Source: Aureitalea sp. L0-47 (GTDB lineage Bacteria > Bacteroidota > Bacteroidia > Flavobacteriales > Flavobacteriaceae). From it: a DNA stretch of 64,000 nt. The translations under genes and the position numbers were made by a program. The notes beneath the pieces were generated by a model that was not told the DNA's origin, ran no database searches, and worked only from the letters and a program-made list of their open reading frames with translations. Every line of letters begins with the position of its first letter. The first letter of the stretch is position 1. Below, one piece after another: positions 55,207-62,872 of this stretch. The stretch is taken from the NCBI RefSeq assembly GCF_026126405.1, contig NZ_JAFMTQ010000007.1, positions 1 to 64,000 of the forward strand, read 5' to 3'.

Positions 55207-57075
55207 CTAAGCGGAATTATTTTCAATTTCATTGTTCTTCTGAACAACTCTTTCAGGATCGATAGGTTTGCCCAAATAAACCAACTCACATCCTTCTCCG
55301 ACCTGCATTTTATGGGGATCGTCGATGAGCCGAATTTCATTTTGCTCATTCTTGAGAAAAAGTGCAACCACATCATCCATCTTTTCTATACTCCTGAATA
55401 AATTTATGAATTGCTCCTGGGAGTTCACTTGCAATTCCTGTATGGAGGGATATTCCGTCGCAACCTGGTCTAACTTAATATAATCGTGTGTTTGTGAAAA
55501 TATCTCTCCAGGCTCTTCCGAAGAAGCCTTTCCATATTTTAACTCTTCGGGACTGATCAGCCGATAAGTACCATTTTCTCCCAATGTCTTGCCGTATTTC
55601 GTAATAGCCTGTTTATTGATCTCGGTATTTCCTGTCATTGCCAGAAGAAAACCAACATCATTGAGTTCAATGTTGTCGGTAAGGTCGCTTGTGATAATAC
55701 TTGCATTTATCGCCTCAAGGCCCAGCTCTTTCGCTCGATCGATATTAACATTGTTTGTGTCGACCAACACTACATGTCGCTTATTTTTCAATAAATAGGA
55801 TCCTATCAGCCGCGAAACTTTGGAGGCGCCCACGATGATAATTCCTTCGGAAGATTTTAAAAATACGCCCACTATGGAAGCGAAAAGCCTAGCCGTGGCG
55901 GCGTTGAGAAGCACTGTTACCAGCACCACCGAAAACACCAACGGAGTTATATATTCTGCTCCCGGTATTCCTTGTTCAACGAGCTTGGTTCCAAAAAGCG
56001 AAGCAATACCCGCTGCAACGATACCACGAGGTCCAACCCAGCTGATAAAAAGTTTTTCATTGACTTTGAGGCTGCTGTTTGTGGTGCTGAGAAAGACAGC
56101 CATGGGCCTGAGAATAAAAATTATTATCGCCAACAGAATTGCGGTTTCCCAGGTATACACTAGCAATAGGTCGTCGAGGCTAATGTTCGCGGCAAGTAAA
56201 ATGAATAGAATTGAAATTAACAGGACGCTTAGAGATTCTTTAAAATAAAGCAGTTCTTTCAGGCTAGGCAAATCACTGTTGCCCAGGAACATCCCCATAA
56301 CAACAACAGCCAAAAGACCTGATTCGTGAGCGAAAACGTCGCTTTCAACAAAGATCAGCAGTACTACCGACAAGGAAACGACATTCAAAAGGTAATGCGG
56401 AATGAATTTCTTTTTTATTGAATAATAGAGGGCATATCCGCCGGATATTCCGAAGGAAAAACCAATAAGTACGATCTTCCCGAATTCCATGAGCGCCTGC
56501 TTGGTATAGCCGGCGTCACCACCAACGCTTATAAACTCAAACACCAAAACGGCCACCAGGGCACCAATGGGGTCGATCAGAATCCCTTCCCATTTAAGCA
56601 CAGCCGAAACTTCTTTCTTGAGTGGAATATTTCTCAGTATAGGAGTTATTACGGTCGGTCCTGTTACAATGATCAAGGCAGAAAACAAGAAGGAAATTCT
56701 CCAGTCTAAACCGAAAAAATAATGCGCAGCAACTCCACCCCCGACAAAAGTAACAGCGGCTCCAAGGCTGATAAGTTTGCCTATCACCGGCCCAATTTTC
56801 TTTACTTCATCTCGCCTCAGGGTGAGTCCTCCTTCGAATAGTATTATCCCAATGGCCAGGGACACGAAATAAAAGAGGTTCTGGTCCGGGAAGAATCCCG
56901 TTTTTCCGTTATAAATTGGTTGAATCCATTGAGAGCCGTCGTCGGATATCAGGGTCGACACGGGGCCCACAAACAACCCAATCAATATCAGTGGCAAGAT
57001 CGCCGGAATTTTCATTTTCCAGGCCACCCATTGTGCCAGGATGCCTAACACTATTATACCAGCGAGTTCGAGCAT
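55207..57075 (-). CDS. CPA1-type cation:proton antiporter with TrkA/RCK domain
   Basis: 622 residues. About 12-13 membrane helices in residues 1-405 (FEGGLTLRRDEVKK, WEGILIDPIGALVAV with the acidic ion-binding helix, and SWVGPRGIVAAGI), followed by a TrkA-N/RCK nucleotide-binding domain starting GIIIVGASKVSRLIGS and a C-terminal TrkA-C-like part. Exchanges Na+ or K+ for H+, with nucleotide or ligand control by the RCK domain. Divergent from the Usp-SulP operon, hinting at joint ion or bicarbonate homeostasis. Confidence 0.87.
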   Translation of the reverse strand: MLELAGIIVLGILAQWVAWKMKIPAILPLILIGLFVGPVSTLISDDGSQWIQPIYNGKTGFFPDQNLFYFVSLAIGIILFEGGLTLRRDEVKKIGPVIGKLISLGAAVTFVGGGVAAHYFFGLDWRISFLFSALIIVTGPTVITPILRNIPLKKEVSAVLKWEGILIDPIGALVAVLVFEFISVGGDAGYTKQALMEFGKIVLIGFSFGISGGYALYYSIKKKFIPHYLLNVVSLSVVLLIFVESDVFAHESGLLAVVVMGMFLGNSDLPSLKELLYFKESLSVLLISILFILLAANISLDDLLLVYTWETAILLAIIIFILRPMAVFLSTTNSSLKVNEKLFISWVGPRGIVAAGIASLFGTKLVEQGIPGAEYITPLVFSVVLVTVLLNAATARLFASIVGVFLKSSEGIIIVGASKVSRLIGSYLLKNKRHVVLVDTNNVNIDRAKELGLEAINASIITSDLTDNIELNDVGFLLAMTGNTEINKQAITKYGKTLGENGTYRLISPEELKYGKASSEEPGEIFSQTHDYIKLDQVATEYPSIQELQVNSQEQFINLFRSIEKMDDVVALFLKNEQNEIRLIDDPHKMQVGEGCELVYLGKPIDPERVVQKNNEIENNSA

Positions 57076-57216
57076 AGCGAAATAATTTCTGTGAAAATAC
57101 TAATTAACAAGTTAGTCCGAAAATATTTAATGTGGCTTTATTAATTCCATTCTACCAAGCACATTAATGATGTTTTTAAAAAGCACTATCTTCCCTGCTC
57201 CGGTAAAACAACCTAA

Positions 57217-58065
57217 TTGAACCACCATACCTTTCAAACCATCGGGATTGGAGTGGCCTTTTCACCTAATCTCAAGGCGAATATTTACGAAGCGGCCCGA
57301 TTGGCGATTTTCTTTGAGTCGAAACTGATCCTAATCCATGTGGGAGAACATTCCGAAGAGAAATCGGACACCATTGAATCACATCTTAAGCCTTTCAAGG
57401 ATAGGGAGCTGGATTACGAGATTCATTTTGAGCCTGGTGATCCGGTAGGTATAATTCTACAGGCGATCAATCACCACCAAATAGACCTGATCTTGCTGGG
57501 GGCCATGCAGCGGGAGAAATTTCTTCAATTCTACCTGGGGTCTATTGCGCGAAAGATTACACGAAAAGCCAGTTGTGCCGTACTACTTCACATAAACCCG
57601 TCGGTTCAGCGTATTCCCTGTCGCCATGTAGTGGTAAACGGCATGAAATCCTCAAGAAGCGCCAAAACCATAGCTTCTGCTTTCTATGTTGGTCATAAAT
57701 TGGGGAGTGAGAGAATTACGATTGTGGAAGAGATCGGACAAGATGAAGTTGCCGTTAAAGTAGAAGATGACGAGTCGTTAGAAAAGGCAACCGCTATAAG
57801 GGAAAGGCTCCGTCTTCGCGAAGATACCCGGGTAAAAAATATCGTGGATACTATCCCTGAAGCTTACAAAACGGGCATTGCTGTTACTTCTCAACCCATC
57901 TTCGGTAAAAGAGGATATTCCATTGGTCACTACGCAGAAGTAGTGCGCGCAGACCTGCTCATTATAAACGCCCAGGGGAAAAGTGGTTTGAAAGACCGGC
58001 TCTTTCCCCATGATAACGAACATATATTAAAAGAGCTGCCAACCGATGTTCTTATCCTTCAATGA
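57217..58065 (+). CDS. Universal stress protein, paired with SulP transporter
   Basis: 282 residues from TTG; no ATG before the conserved start region. Two Usp-like halves: FQTIGIGVAFSPNLKANIYEA ... ILLGAMQREKFLQFYLGSIARKITRKASCAVLLH (residues ~95-128) and a second half ending LLIINAQGKSGLKDRLFPHD ... DVLILQ. Its last 4 nt overlap the SulP start (ATGA), so the two proteins are made together and the Usp may regulate the transporter. Such Usp-SulP pairs are common in aquatic bacteria. Confidence 0.8.
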   Translation: MNHHTFQTIGIGVAFSPNLKANIYEAARLAIFFESKLILIHVGEHSEEKSDTIESHLKPFKDRELDYEIHFEPGDPVGIILQAINHHQIDLILLGAMQREKFLQFYLGSIARKITRKASCAVLLHINPSVQRIPCRHVVVNGMKSSRSAKTIASAFYVGHKLGSERITIVEEIGQDEVAVKVEDDESLEKATAIRERLRLREDTRVKNIVDTIPEAYKTGIAVTSQPIFGKRGYSIGHYAEVVRADLLIINAQGKSGLKDRLFPHDNEHILKELPTDVLILQ

Positions 58066-60257
58066 CAACGAAAAAAAACAGCATATCAATTTTTCTGAAA
58101 TCGCTTCCAAAAAACATCTTTTCGGGATTCGTAGTAAGCCTTATTGCTCTCCCCCTGGGTCTTGGACTGGCAATGGCTAGTGAAGCCCCGCCTATTGCTG
58201 GCATCATTGCCGCAATCGTAGGGGGCGTGGTGGTATCCATCCTCGGCGGTAGTCATGTAACCATTACAGGGCCTGGAAATGGCCTGGTAGGCGTACTTCT
58301 CGTTGCCATAACGGCTCTGGGGATAGAAGCTACTTATGCTGCCGTGATTTGTTCCGGTGGGCTGCTCCTGCTCCTTGGTGTTTTTCGGATGGGTAAGTTG
58401 GCCGATTTTTTTCCGTCCTCTGCTATTCAGGGAATGCTGGCGGCAATTGGACTAATCATTCTTGGAAAACAATTCCATGTAATGGTGGGAAACAAGATCA
58501 GTCGAGAACGCAGCATCGACTACCTGGTCGAAATCCCGGAGTCTGTTATTATGATCTTTCGGCAGGACAGCATGAGCCTGGTATATGCGGCTATCGCCGG
58601 TATATTAAGTTTGTTCATAATGGCGTATTACCCTAAGCTTCGAAACAGGTTTCTCCAGCTTATCCCTGCACCAATGTGGATAGTGCTTCTTTCCATCGGT
58701 TTCAGTTATTTTATGGAATATATCATCCAGGCACCTAATCCTATTCACCCGGAATACATGCTGTCTGGTATTCCGAAGCCCAATGAAATCGTCTCTCAGA
58801 TCCCGTCGCCCAATTTTTCCCAAGCCGCCGGTTTCCCCTTCTGGTTGAGCGTGATCTCACTCACTTTAATAGCCAGTATAGAATCGTTGCTAAGTATCAA
58901 AGCTGTGGATAAACTGGACCCCGGTCGAAGACGTAGTAATGTGAACAAAGATCTCAAGGCGTTGGGACTAGCTACAGTGGGAAGTGGTTTTTTAGGAGGC
59001 ATTAACGTTGTCACAGTGATCGCCCGAAGTTCGGTGAATGTGAACAACGGTGGTTCCAACAGGTCGTCCAATTTCTTTCATGCGATCTTTCTAACCCTTT
59101 TTATACTGCTTTTTAGTTCTCAGTTATTTAGAATCCCACTTCCGGCACTGATGGCAATTTTAGTTTTCACAGGCTATAAACTGGCCTCTCCTTCTATGGT
59201 GCGTAAAATTTTCAACATTGGAAAAGAACAATTGATCATCTTCTTCACCACACTTTTGTTTACACTATTTGTGAACCTGATCGTCGGAATCATCGCAGGG
59301 GTGGTCGTAACCTTTATTATTCATCTTTTTGTGTCCAAAAGCATTTTATTATTCGTGCGAAACGTACAAAAACCAAATGTGTTGATGTACAAGGAAATTG
59401 ATTCCGGTGGATACTATGTGAGCGTGAAGCATTTTTCATCATTTCTGAATTTTTACCGGCTAAAACAAAATTTGGAAATGATACCATCGAACTCAGATGT
59501 GGTAGTTGATTTTAGCCTTTGTGAGTTCGTTGATCACACGGTTATGGATAGTTTGAGCGACTACCAAAACGTATTTCAGAAAAGCAACGGAAGTTTTGAA
59601 ATCATTGGACTGGATCTGCACGATGCGGAATCCGAACACCCTTTTGCGCTCCGGAGATTACTTCCAGGGTTTCAGTTTATTGAAAAAAATCTTACTCGAA
59701 GGCAATCCACCCTAAGTGATATCGCTGAAGATTATGAGCTTAACTATGTGCCGGATAGTGTTTCGGAAGTTCGTTTTCTTGAAGATTTTATCTTTTTCAG
59801 AACAAAACAAATTCAAAGAATATACAATCAACTCCTGAACGATATTAGTAGCTTTAGGATATTCGATCTTACCTTTTCCGAAGGTGCTTTCATTGCCCGT
59901 GAAGTGGTTCGAACCACTATGCTGCATATCGAATTGGAGAAAGATATCCCCGTGTTTACCCTAGACAGGGAGGGTTTCCTGGAGAAAATTTACGCCTTTG
60001 CCGGGTTCAGGGATATTCCTATTGAAAACCACAGCGATTTTTCACGACGGTTTTATCTGCTAGGTGAAGACGAAGAGGCAATTAAAAGCTTCTTCGATGA
60101 CGATTTGGTTCATTTCTTCGAAAGCAATCCATACTATCACATCGAGTCTAACGGGCATTCGTTACTTCTCTTCGGAAAGGAACGAGTGGCGGGCGTCAAA
60201 GAGATTAAAGCCCTTCTCGATTTTGGAAAAAGACTAAAGGAAATCGTAACACATTGA
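58062..60257 (+). CDS. SulP family anion transporter with STAS and extra C-terminal domain
   Basis: 731 residues. SulP membrane domain ~15-435 (LIALPLGLGLAMASEAPPIAG, GPGNGLVGVL, SLLSIKAVDKLDPG region), then a STAS domain (~440-520: VSVKHFSSFLNF, VVVDFSLCEFVDHTVMDSL, FEIIGLDLHD). A further ~170-residue domain (~560-731) follows, with KTKQ-like helix, FSRRFYLLGEDEEAIKSFFD and HSLLLFGKE; it reminds me of DUF3137-like cytosolic domains but this is uncertain. Transports sulfate or bicarbonate, probably Na+-coupled in a marine organism. SulP proteins normally end at or soon after STAS. Confidence 0.85.
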   Translation: MTTKKNSISIFLKSLPKNIFSGFVVSLIALPLGLGLAMASEAPPIAGIIAAIVGGVVVSILGGSHVTITGPGNGLVGVLLVAITALGIEATYAAVICSGGLLLLLGVFRMGKLADFFPSSAIQGMLAAIGLIILGKQFHVMVGNKISRERSIDYLVEIPESVIMIFRQDSMSLVYAAIAGILSLFIMAYYPKLRNRFLQLIPAPMWIVLLSIGFSYFMEYIIQAPNPIHPEYMLSGIPKPNEIVSQIPSPNFSQAAGFPFWLSVISLTLIASIESLLSIKAVDKLDPGRRRSNVNKDLKALGLATVGSGFLGGINVVTVIARSSVNVNNGGSNRSSNFFHAIFLTLFILLFSSQLFRIPLPALMAILVFTGYKLASPSMVRKIFNIGKEQLIIFFTTLLFTLFVNLIVGIIAGVVVTFIIHLFVSKSILLFVRNVQKPNVLMYKEIDSGGYYVSVKHFSSFLNFYRLKQNLEMIPSNSDVVVDFSLCEFVDHTVMDSLSDYQNVFQKSNGSFEIIGLDLHDAESEHPFALRRLLPGFQFIEKNLTRRQSTLSDIAEDYELNYVPDSVSEVRFLEDFIFFRTKQIQRIYNQLLNDISSFRIFDLTFSEGAFIAREVVRTTMLHIELEKDIPVFTLDREGFLEKIYAFAGFRDIPIENHSDFSRRFYLLGEDEEAIKSFFDDDLVHFFESNPYYHIESNGHSLLLFGKERVAGVKEIKALLDFGKRLKEIVTH

Positions 60258-60323: not shown

Positions 60324-61184
60324 ATGAAATTATTCCCCATTGAATCCGGAAATTTCAAGCTCGACGGAGGTGCTATGTTCGGCGTCGTTCCCAAATCTCT
60401 TTGGTCCAGAACGAATCCCGCAGACAACAACAATATGATCGATATGGCCGCTCGTTGCCTGCTAATTGAGAATGGAGATCGGCTTACGCTTATCGACACC
60501 GGAATGGGCGAGAAACAAAGCGAGAAATTCTTTGGGTACTATTTTCGCTGGGGAGATCACACACTTGAAGGTTCCCTGAAAAAACATGGTTTTCATCCGG
60601 ACGATATTACCGATGTTTTTATGACGCATCTTCATTTCGATCATTGTGGGGGAAGTGTGCAGTGGAATAAAGACCGAACCGGCTACGAACCGGCGTTTAA
60701 GAATGCTACTTTCTGGAGCAACGCACGTCACTGGGACTGGGCTGTAAATCCTAACAGAAGAGAAAAAGCATCATTTCTGAAGGAAAATATTCTTCCTATG
60801 GAGGAAAGTGGACAGCTGAAGTTTGTAAAGGACCCCACAAGTGATTATTCGGATGCAGATGAGCTGGATTTCGGCATTTTCTTTGCAGACGGGCATACCG
60901 AAAAACAAATGCTGCCACACATCGAATACAAAGGCAAGATCATTGTTTTTGTTGCAGACCTTTTACCAACCGCAGGGCATTTGCCCCTCCCATACGTGAT
61001 GGGATATGACACTCGGCCATTATTGACACTTCCCGAAAAAGAGAAGTTTCTGAATGCGGCCGCTGATAATGAGTATTATTTGTTTCTTGAGCATGACGCT
61101 CACAACGAAATTATAACTGTTAAACATACCGAGAAAGGGGTCCGGCTGGACCAAACTTTCACATTTGATGAATTATTTAATTAG
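60324..61184 (+). CDS. MBL-fold metallo-hydrolase
   Basis: 286 residues, no signal peptide. Zinc-site motifs: MTHLHFDHCGG (His-x-His-x-Asp-His, about residues 99-109), FADGHTEKQ and VADLLPTAGH plus EHDAHNE. Resembles quorum-quenching-lactonase-like and N-acyl hydrolase MBL proteins of Bacteroidota, but the substrate is not evident. Only 8 nt separate it from the S8 peptidase gene, so the two are probably co-transcribed. TACTTTTA at about 60299-60306 is a possible -7 element. Confidence 0.85.
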   Translation: MKLFPIESGNFKLDGGAMFGVVPKSLWSRTNPADNNNMIDMAARCLLIENGDRLTLIDTGMGEKQSEKFFGYYFRWGDHTLEGSLKKHGFHPDDITDVFMTHLHFDHCGGSVQWNKDRTGYEPAFKNATFWSNARHWDWAVNPNRREKASFLKENILPMEESGQLKFVKDPTSDYSDADELDFGIFFADGHTEKQMLPHIEYKGKIIVFVADLLPTAGHLPLPYVMGYDTRPLLTLPEKEKFLNAAADNEYYLFLEHDAHNEIITVKHTEKGVRLDQTFTFDELFN

Positions 61185-61192
61185 ACTGAAAA

Positions 61193-62872
61193 ATGAAATT
61201 GACTAAACTTTTCACACTGGCCTTTATTTCGGCCATTTTATTGGCGAGTTGCGGGAATAGCATAGCGCCAATAGTATCAACGCCTATCGAAAATATCGAT
61301 TCGCTACCTCTTAAAACATCACCTTTAAGCGACGACGAAACCAAGTCCTGGGGTGCTGCAGACCTGCTTACCGACACCATCCCCGGTATGAGTGTTGACA
61401 AAGCCTATGCAGAGATCCTTAACAACACAAAAAGAAAAGGACAAAAGGTGATTGTTGGCGTTATCGACAGCGGTGTTGATATCGAACACGAAGACCTGAA
61501 AGACGTGATCTGGGTAAACGAAGATGAGATTCCCGGAAACGGCAAGGATGACGACAACAACGGATTTGTTGATGATGTTCACGGATGGAATTTCCTTGGA
61601 GATATCGTTGGCGAAAACATGGAGTATACTCGCTATATAAGAAAGTTGGGGCCAAAATTCGAAGGGAAATCGGAAAGCTCTGTTAGCGCAGCGGATCGAG
61701 CTGATTATGCAATCTACACGAAGGCAAAGGCAGAATATGACAAAGAGTACAAAGACGTTAAAGCAAATAACGATCGTTACGAGCAAATTCTGAGTCAGTT
61801 AGAACCCGCACACAGCGCAATTTCAAAGAAATTAGGAAAAGAGGATTACAACGCAGAAGACCTTTCGGGTATTGCGAATCCCTCCCCGGCCGAGCAGCAG
61901 CAAATAGGAATGCTGACTCAGATGTTGAGCTACGGCGAGTCTGTTCCGGAAGTTATTAAGCAGCTTAACGGCGGTATAGACTACTTCGGCGGTCGATTGG
62001 AAACTCATTTCAATTTGGATAAAGAATTCCGAACGGCATTGAACAACGACCCTGATGATTTTTCTACGAAAATATACGGAGACAATGATGTAGATGGGCC
62101 GGACCCAAAAGAAGAAGATGCTACTCACGGTACACACGTTGCTGGTATAATTGCTGCCAAAAGGAACAACGGAGTTGGAATGAACGGGGTGGCCAACAAT
62201 GCCGAGATCATGGTGATCCGCACCATTCCTGATGGAGATGAGTACGACAAAGATGTGGCACTGGCTATTCGTTATGCCGTTGATAACGGAGCAAAGGTAA
62301 TCAACACCAGCTTCGGAAAATATTTCTCACCGCATCCAGAGTGGGTGCGAGATGCCATTAAGTACGCCGCTTCAAAAGACGTGCTTATTGTTAACGCGGC
62401 AGGAAATGAGGCCTTCAATCTTGATACCATAGAAGTGTATCCAAACGACCAGTCTTTATCCGGTCCGGAAATCGCGAACAATGTTCTTACCGTTGGTGCA
62501 TTAAACTACAAGTACGGAGGTGAAATGATCGCAACTTTTTCAAACTACGGAAAATCCAATGTGGATGTATTCGCTCCGGGTGTGAGGATTTGGTCCACTA
62601 CCCCTCTCAACGAGTACGAATATCTGCAGGGAACCTCAATGGCGGCACCAGCTGTTGCAGGGGTTGCGGCTACAATTCGATCGTACTATCCAAATCTTAG
62701 TGCTGCTCAGGTTAAAGAAGTGATCATGAATAGTGGTTTGACTTCAAAAAGTCCTGTGGTTCTGGGCGGAGATTCATCCAACCAGGAAAATTTCGGAGAT
62801 ATTTCTAAGTCTGGAAAAATGGTAAACATGTATAATGCGCTTATTCTTGCGGATAAAATGTCGAGGAAATGA
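61193..62872 (+). CDS. S8 (subtilisin-like) serine peptidase, lipoprotein
   Basis: 559 residues. Lipobox with Cys20 (LLASC). Catalytic triad: Asp92 in VIDSGVD, His312 in HGTHVAG, Ser482 in GTSMAAP; oxyanion Asn in NAAGNE. Between Asp and His lies a ~220-residue stretch, where simple subtilisins have about 32 residues; it includes a calcium-site-like NGKDDDNNGFVDDVHGWNF and a charged, helical, probably disordered insert (~150-270). Likely exported and tethered to a membrane. Its stop overlaps the ATG of the M1 peptidase gene, so both proteases are made together. Confidence 0.9.
   Translation: MKLTKLFTLAFISAILLASCGNSIAPIVSTPIENIDSLPLKTSPLSDDETKSWGAADLLTDTIPGMSVDKAYAEILNNTKRKGQKVIVGVIDSGVDIEHEDLKDVIWVNEDEIPGNGKDDDNNGFVDDVHGWNFLGDIVGENMEYTRYIRKLGPKFEGKSESSVSAADRADYAIYTKAKAEYDKEYKDVKANNDRYEQILSQLEPAHSAISKKLGKEDYNAEDLSGIANPSPAEQQQIGMLTQMLSYGESVPEVIKQLNGGIDYFGGRLETHFNLDKEFRTALNNDPDDFSTKIYGDNDVDGPDPKEEDATHGTHVAGIIAAKRNNGVGMNGVANNAEIMVIRTIPDGDEYDKDVALAIRYAVDNGAKVINTSFGKYFSPHPEWVRDAIKYAASKDVLIVNAAGNEAFNLDTIEVYPNDQSLSGPEIANNVLTVGALNYKYGGEMIATFSNYGKSNVDVFAPGVRIWSTTPLNEYEYLQGTSMAAPAVAGVAATIRSYYPNLSAAQVKEVIMNSGLTSKSPVVLGGDSSNQENFGDISKSGKMVNMYNALILADKMSRK

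Follow-up and report, generated by a model that had tools for sequence, protein, structure and literature searches.

Two characterized members of the SulP/SLC26 transporters provide the closest points of reference for the locus described here. BicA is a Na+/bicarbonate SulP of cyanobacteria, in which an Asp in transmembrane segment 8 (TM8) binds Na+ (PMC8298490), and AtSULTR4;1 is an H+/sulfate SLC26, in which transport driven by H+ depends on the equivalent acid, Glu347, and activity on Arg393 (PMC8298490). A third point of reference comes from mycobacteria, where the membrane-anchored protein TtfA binds MmpL3 and is required for MmpL3 transport; a role as lipid chaperone or scaffold has been proposed by its authors (PMC6593404), a review notes that the structure has no obvious lipid pocket (PMC7458404), and the protein is essential, its transport role being described as still unknown (PMC10171966). 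This article concerns a universal stress protein (Usp) gene and a SulP gene, with a divergent antiporter gene beside them, in a stretch of 64,000 nucleotides (positions 1 to 64,000 of contig NZ_JAFMTQ010000007.1, assembly GCF_026126405.1; hereafter the window) from the 3.38-Mb genome of Aureitalea sp. L0-47, a probably marine member of the Flavobacteriaceae. Its main addition is an identity for the long C-terminal tail of the SulP, which, judging from a structural model of a homologue, appears to be a TtfA-like domain; the family to which it belongs has no name, and its members are found on their own and behind DUF3592 as well.

The three genes and their parts are laid out as follows (window positions, strand, description).

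55207-57075, minus strand: CPA1-type cation/proton antiporter with a C-terminal RCK domain (TrkA_N), 622 aa; PF00999 Na_H_Exchanger 1.3e-38, PF02254 TrkA_N 5.8e-8
57076-57216, no strand: intergenic stretch of 141 bp between the divergent genes
57217-58065, plus strand: tandem Usp, 282 aa, TTG start; PF00582 1e-18, in two stretches
58062-58065, plus strand: ATGA overlap of 4 bases between the Usp stop and the SulP start
58062-60257, plus strand: SulP, 731 aa; Sulfate_transp PF00916 7.2e-48, 163.7 bits (cut-off 23.2)
58080-59339, plus strand: SulP/SLC26 transmembrane domain, residues 7-426; fold compared with BicA 6ki1, TM8 E274 and TM10 R322 taken from alignments
59373-59660, plus strand: short STAS-type domain, about residues 438-533; predicted strands and helices 440-533, STAS_2 0.049
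59697-60254, plus strand: predicted TtfA-like C-terminal domain, about residues 546-731; homology to a stand-alone family, fold from the model of a stand-alone homologue

The gene calls and the four-base overlap bear out the initial annotation in its description of an antiporter with an RCK domain divergent from a translationally coupled Usp-SulP pair. The SulP combines the Sulfate_transp domain with an SLC26 fold, its full-length model aligning with BicA 6ki1 at Z 38.9 (rmsd 2.8, 364 residues aligned), a search that mainly tests residues 6-426. The STAS_2 match is below threshold in the window protein and reaches 3.3e-4 in locus L056; the predicted elements between residues 440 and 533 fit a short STAS domain.

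Beyond these elements, which end near residue 533 (full-length model from a 40-sequence alignment, mean pLDDT 74), lies the tail. Unfused SulPs can mostly be aligned only up to residues 500-517 of the window SulP, and the tail begins near residue 546 rather than at residue 560, as had been suggested; the block FSRRFYLLGEDEEAI corresponds to SulP residues 660-674. Among 40 aligned homologues, the tail (546-731) holds 14 invariant and 21 nearly invariant positions. A survey of the same family, in which each of 149 genera was represented by one genome, found a class I SulP, defined as one that matches at 50% identity or more with the tail included, in 55 genomes, and a tail-including match at 37-40% identity in nine, with both kinds present in two. 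A Pfam scan of 32 tails gave no consistent family, ten families matching one tail each at 0.011 or worse, and nothing notable for the tail was obtained from NCBIfam or PHROGs. The tail is a real, conserved and separate domain which, as the initial annotation had supposed, SulP proteins do not usually have. No description of a tailed SulP or of flavobacterial Usp-SulP pairs was met in a literature search conducted without most subscription journals.

Relatives of the tail are found outside SulPs. In a whole-phylum sample, the profile built from the 32 tails recovered two short proteins and matched in 10 of 296 genomes, so that the domain must be regarded as patchy rather than universal. Searched against short proteins in which the domain is stand-alone or otherwise fused, the same profile gave E-values of 8.6e-30 to 8.2e-19 over most of the domain (in a small search set), and a distant 233-aa protein in locus L085 was matched at 4.7e-9. 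Alignment of the 32 SulP tails with 16 stand-alone-type sequences by hhalign returned 99.9% and 1.2e-31 over 192 columns. In a second family (f5), 46 of 100 genomes had a match, the 59 matching rows comprising 18 long frames (720-784 aa), 35 short ones (198-248 aa), and 6 that were partial or at contig edges; in a third (f8), matches occurred in 26 of 118 genomes, most of them in frames of about 700-770 aa. The short protein of one f5 genome (G321) is identical to a protein of Neolewinella aquimaris (Lewinellaceae), and among named organisms the unfused domain is carried by Agaribacillus aureus, N. aquimaris, and a Lewinella, besides metagenome-assembled genomes (MAGs). By these profile comparisons, the tail is homologous to an unnamed stand-alone family with members of Lewinella type, in other Bacteroidota, and on a Nostoc plasmid. 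Membership in a phage protein family was considered and rejected: PHROGs offered no match for the protein of locus L084 and one weak match (0.011) for that of L085. Among further occurrences, one MAG carries two stand-alone TtfA-like genes in tandem (L090:1669-2964), four domain matches lie within a single genome (G439), and an unclassified bacterial MAG encodes a 497-aa protein (L094:239-1732) with a TtfA-like domain and a C-terminal part that, by eye, resembles DUF3592.

The fold of the domain was obtained from a model of a stand-alone homologue (built from 17 sequences headed by the Neolewinella-type protein; pLDDT 93), and the predicted elements of the window's own tail follow in the same order. 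A second structural aligner, VIA-align, which re-ranks Foldseek candidates only, so that its list of folds is not taken as exhaustive, placed TtfA (6t84) first, with a Z of 17.3, an rmsd of 2.8, and 168 of 178 residues aligned at 12% identity. This value stands out, since according to the aligner's note a model that has no clear match usually reaches a best Z of 7-8. Several observations detract from the assignment. The model used as the query is that of a stand-alone homologue, whose identity to the SulP tails is about 25%; Foldseek against the PDB gave no row better than E 0.23 among the best 50 of 421, and 6t84 was absent from those 50, the match arising from the second aligner's treatment of Foldseek candidates; and 6t84 was not recovered by any of three profiles of the domain family when PDB sequences were searched with E-value limits of 5 or 10. 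A fold match without a sequence match leads us to claim a shared fold, and not proven homology. The single N-terminal transmembrane anchor that marks TtfA is also absent, the domain lying C-terminal to SulP, and it is therefore filed as a TtfA-like fold and not as TtfA; binding to MmpL3 would not be expected outside mycolate producers. A Rhodococcus plasmid match (E 0.7), considered as a possible TtfA relative, proved to be a 142-aa open reading frame that does not look related.

In a tree of 104 SulPs, a single branch (SH-aLRT 92) separates the 74 fused proteins from all others, a separation matched in 0 of 500 shuffles. The fused proteins comprise class I with 33 rows (support 100), a mixed group with 30 (support 97), and an f8 group with 11 (support 99). 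With this topology, SulPs may perhaps have gained the tail a single time. Counting against a single origin, the 30 unfused SulPs all come from one family (f1) and a wider sample could break the grouping; the tree was built by a quick method and contains some long branches.

The partner that accompanies class I SulPs most faithfully is the Usp. An orthologue is present in all 55 class I genomes, in 54 of them directly upstream on the same strand with the matched segments at most 38 bp apart; in the remaining one (G088), the two genes fall at contig ends, Usp being followed by the start of SulP. Only one of the 149 genomes (G103) has the Usp without the SulP, and there the Usp is at a contig end. 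Fisher's test on this co-occurrence gives 2e-40, a figure to be read with the relatedness of the genomes in mind, as they are not independent events. Nothing else at the locus is linked as closely to class I SulP as the Usp, which argues for a physical or regulatory partnership. Short Usp remnants were seen beside the antiporter in two genomes without a class I SulP, as 29 residues in G044 and two pieces in G091 (loci L097 and L098, respectively), as if the Usp-SulP pair had decayed together.

The antiporter is a looser associate. It belongs by its Na_H_Exchanger and TrkA_N domains to the CPA1 NhaP-type antiporters with RCK, and its best PDB sequence match is 4czb, Na+/H+ antiporter 1 (9.2e-19). 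It is the divergent neighbour in 38 of the 55 class I genomes, lies elsewhere or on another contig in 4, and has no orthologue in the match list for 13. The antiporter is not an obligatory part of the Usp-SulP unit. Promoter-like matches in the region numbered 6 against a shuffle mean of 10.7, none being inside 57076-57216, and terminator-like sites were about as frequent as in shuffles (7 against 5.7). A part in a defence system was also considered for the locus and rejected, PADLOC giving nothing notable beyond a single weak JetB match to the antiporter (0.0095).

The position beside the antiporter is itself variable. Downstream of SulP in the window lies a lactonase-type metallo-hydrolase gene (60324-61184; nearest model YtnP quorum-quenching lactonase, 179.7 bits with a cut-off of 425), a kind of gene that often adjoins the antiporter slot in relatives of the same family, followed by a gene with subtilisin-type motifs (61193-62872; motifs read by eye). 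The pair lies between antiporter and lactonase in 19 of 31 class I loci with flanks, three of these with one extra gene; in the other 12, one or both flanking genes were not in the stretch or frame list. A comparison set of 40 antiporter-centred loci came from genomes that lack a class I SulP and includes the contig-edge locus of G103; both flanks are visible in 35, with nothing between them in 25 and other genes in 10. The occupants include an SLC13-type permease in L112 (Pfam, CitMHS plus a Na_sulph_symp match) and, by length and start only, in L118 and L126, as well as further cation/proton antiporters in L122 and L134 (Pfam). Since the slot is occupied variously across genomes, the Usp-SulP pair behaves like a cassette in a transporter-prone slot. 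Amino acid permeases with C-terminal Usp repeats (Pfam) were observed in the slot at L095:7699-9903 and L131:8974-11184, and L096:4656-6860 is likely similar, by length and start only. Mutual exclusion between class I SulP and the SLC13-type permease was entertained and dropped, the permease being matched at 1e-50 in 18 of the 55 genomes that have class I SulP and in 38 of the 94 that lack it (counted by eye).

We propose that Usp and SulP form a two-gene anion-transport unit, an explanation to which, taken as a whole, we give an even chance of being right. The SulP would be an SLC26-type transporter, most likely for bicarbonate, with H+ or Na+ coupling through the TM8 acid E274. The second cytoplasmic domain that follows STAS, with its putative TtfA fold and its stand-alone relatives, may by analogy with TtfA serve the transporter, to which it is fixed in cis, as a platform for docking or assembly at its cytoplasmic face. 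The Usp would be a dedicated, co-translated partner of class I SulP, probably regulatory, and the antiporter an ion-homeostasis neighbour rather than a subunit. In this proposal, the gene layout, its conservation, the homology of the tail to the stand-alone family, the fold match obtained for that family, the grouping of the fused SulPs, and the linkage of the Usp are computed results, and the substrate, the coupling ion, the docking role, and regulation by the Usp are inferred.

Bicarbonate, or inorganic carbon more broadly, is the predicted substrate that genomic context favours, and we hold it with moderate confidence. In the f8 group, six of the seven members of one subclade (L159, L160, L161, L167, L136, and L137) lie within 5 kb of dabA-dabB, the seventh being on a 6.5-kb contig; DabA was confirmed by Pfam in two of these loci and by blastp at 65-71% identity in four. 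Of 20 chosen loci of tail-less class II SulPs, 15 include a neighbouring carbonic anhydrase, with a Usp between in 4 of the 15, and 3 of the 15 carbonic anhydrases are only 25% identical to the query. Two further neighbours were not counted as dabAB, namely a 22% DabB-like protein without DabA in L163 and, in an f1 genome, a protein of 787 aa that has 27% identity to DabA and is encoded close to a class II SulP (L209:7166-9529). The window's genome has a class II example on contig 4 (L141:2796-5848), where a 525-aa SulP without tail, a Usp, and a beta-carbonic anhydrase form one apparent operon; the Usp-like protein there has 271 aa and a weak Usp match of 23.2 bits (cut-off 24). On contig 8 of that genome is a 616-aa SulP (L143:2666-4516) scoring 400.8 bits for BicA (cut-off 880), and the group of other paralogues to which it belongs has a BicA-like TM8 Asp in 7 of 9 rows.

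The binding site speaks less clearly. E274 is kept in 33 of 33 class I SulPs, 21 of 21 class II SulPs, and 7 of 7 members of the dabAB-linked subclade, and R322 in 32 of 33, 21 of 21, and 7 of 7, respectively, as well as in 32 of 34 other fused SulPs. Class I SulPs thus have the TM8 Glu and TM10 Arg/Lys of the SULTR type; the window SulP scores 101.2 bits for the NCBIfam BicA equivalog NF050096 (cut-off 880) and lacks the TM8 Asp. Because class II SulPs share both residues, the pocket does not decide the substrate. A sodium-bicarbonate or sulfate circuit had been envisaged for the locus at the outset; context favours its bicarbonate element, but E274 stands in place of the Na+-site Asp of BicA, and R322 has no counterpart there.

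A number of observations tell against a bicarbonate transporter. A dabAB neighbour is present in only 6 of the 21 fused f8 loci and 0 of the 13 fused f5 loci examined, most loci being without it, in a screen confined to these two sets, and DabA was not found in the window's genome. Of the three further SulPs encoded in that genome, one has a carbonic anhydrase as neighbour and another reaches a much higher BicA score, so that the cell may already have its inorganic carbon provided for. Among the 34 other fused SulPs, only 27 retain E274. The E274/R322 arrangement is that of the AtSULTR4;1 H+/sulfate symporter rather than that of BicA (PMC8298490). Finally, the genome has genes of the PAPS-reductase family, one of them in a CysD/CysN-like pair, and no transporter of the families searched was found on the contig of that pair.

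These last points also speak for an alternative in which the SulP would be an H+-coupled importer of sulfate or another oxyanion for sulfate assimilation, tuned by tail and Usp to sulfur supply. The TM8 Glu and TM10 Arg match Glu347 and Arg393 of AtSULTR4;1 (PMC8298490), the genome's genes of sulfate-assimilation type have no linked transporter of the families searched, and some genomes that lack class I SulP have the SLC13-type permease in its slot. Against this, the class II SulPs, mostly linked to carbonic anhydrase, share both residues without exception, which leaves the two substrates unseparated; one fused subclade is linked to dabAB; and the permease and class I SulP stand side by side in G024 and G070, so that there is no simple replacement of one by the other. 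We consider the sulfur-supply explanation possible but on the unlikely side, and the same tentative standing is given to sulfate as the predicted substrate of the window SulP.

A further alternative concerns the tail, which could be an assembly or stability domain, chaperone-like in the manner of CCDC47 in the multipass translocon, that aids folding or dimerization and has no part in regulation. It draws on the structural matches that rank after TtfA, which are chains of endoplasmic reticulum multipass/SND3 translocon entries (Z 9.7, 7.8, and 7.2), chains that we take to be CCDC47, followed by type III secretion chaperone and YbjN-like small folds at Z of 6.5 or less. The entry 9I78 does contain CCDC47 (PMC12572126). 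The translocon values are, however, near or within the range that the aligner calls common, close unfused SulPs manage without the domain, and the domain also exists in the 35 short frames mentioned above. A pure assembly role is rather unlikely in our estimation, and a docking or assembly platform fixed in cis remains the reading that we prefer for the tail.

The initial annotation suggested that the Usp could bind nucleotide and, by way of the C-terminal domain, gate the transporter. The constant company of Usp and tail in all 55 class I genomes and the overlap of the two genes would be consistent with this. Elsewhere the two part company: no Usp was found within three genes of 34 fused loci of f5 and f8 (four f8 contigs being shorter than 7 kb) or in the stretches around 7 fused f1 loci outside class I, giving 41 fused loci without a neighbouring Usp, and an eighth such f1 locus, L064, on a 4.1-kb contig, has no Usp match. 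Conversely, the domain occurs without any SulP, and the tail-less SulP of the same genome is likewise followed by a Usp. The Usp is not tied to the tail domain in general. ATP-binding Usps carry the motif G-x2-G-x9-G-(S/T). In repeat 1 of the window Usp, the motif is incomplete, reading G95-x2-Q98-x9-G108-S109 with Gln in place of the second Gly, and repeat 2 has lost it, so that nucleotide binding, on the evidence of these residues, is doubtful. Nucleotide gating through the tail is a possible but weaker reading, and we regard it as improbable; a dedicated and probably regulatory partnership of Usp with class I SulP is preferred. The Usp is also matched in PHROGs at 3.8e-16.

That the tail is an ordinary, unconserved STAS extension, as its lack of a name in Pfam and NCBIfam might suggest, is refuted by its stand-alone homologues and carries next to no probability given its 14 invariant positions among 40 homologues and its own fold elements.

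Class I constitutes an SLC26 subtype whose dedicated partner is a Usp, and one branch among the fused SulPs is linked to the DabAB inorganic-carbon system. The presence of the same predicted fold fused to a transporter would offer a tractable non-pathogen system for asking what such a domain does to a transporter, and the SulP fusion would, if the proposal is true, show the partner of TtfA-like domains directly. More speculatively, and with a probability that we put on the low side, TtfA-like domains might constitute a general class of cytoplasmic transporter-docking domains, acting in cis for an SLC26 inorganic-carbon transporter here and in trans for MmpL3, the stand-alone forms of Lewinella relatives and cyanobacteria being accessory proteins of other transporters.

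Compared with the known systems, the window SulP resembles BicA (6ki1) in its transmembrane fold and differs from it in the TM8 Glu and in the TM10 Arg, which BicA does not have; the 547-position NCBIfam model of BicA, moreover, leaves no room for the tail. With AtSULTR4;1 (7lhv), it shares the TM8 Glu, the TM10 Arg, and the fold (Z 36.1), whereas that protein is a plant vacuolar one for which no such tail is mentioned in the accessible part of its description (PMC8298490). Class II SulPs, including L141 of the same genome and its relatives, are the nearest unfused SulPs in the tree and have the same TM8 and TM10 residues, and are distinguished by a length of 522-574 aa, the absence of the tail domain, and, mostly, a carbonic anhydrase neighbour. 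The Nostoc carneum plasmid protein BAY35567.1 carries the same domain family as the SulP tail in its C-terminal 190 or so residues, with a DUF3592 region instead of SulP as the domain's partner. TtfA (MSMEG_0736/Rv0383c; 6t84) appears to share the fold of the domain family and is likewise a cytoplasmic domain tied to a membrane transporter, but it is preceded by a single transmembrane segment at the N-terminus of TtfA and works in trans, its target being an RND exporter (PMC6593404), whereas the domain of the window SulP, for which no sequence similarity to TtfA was found, is fused to an SLC26 transporter.

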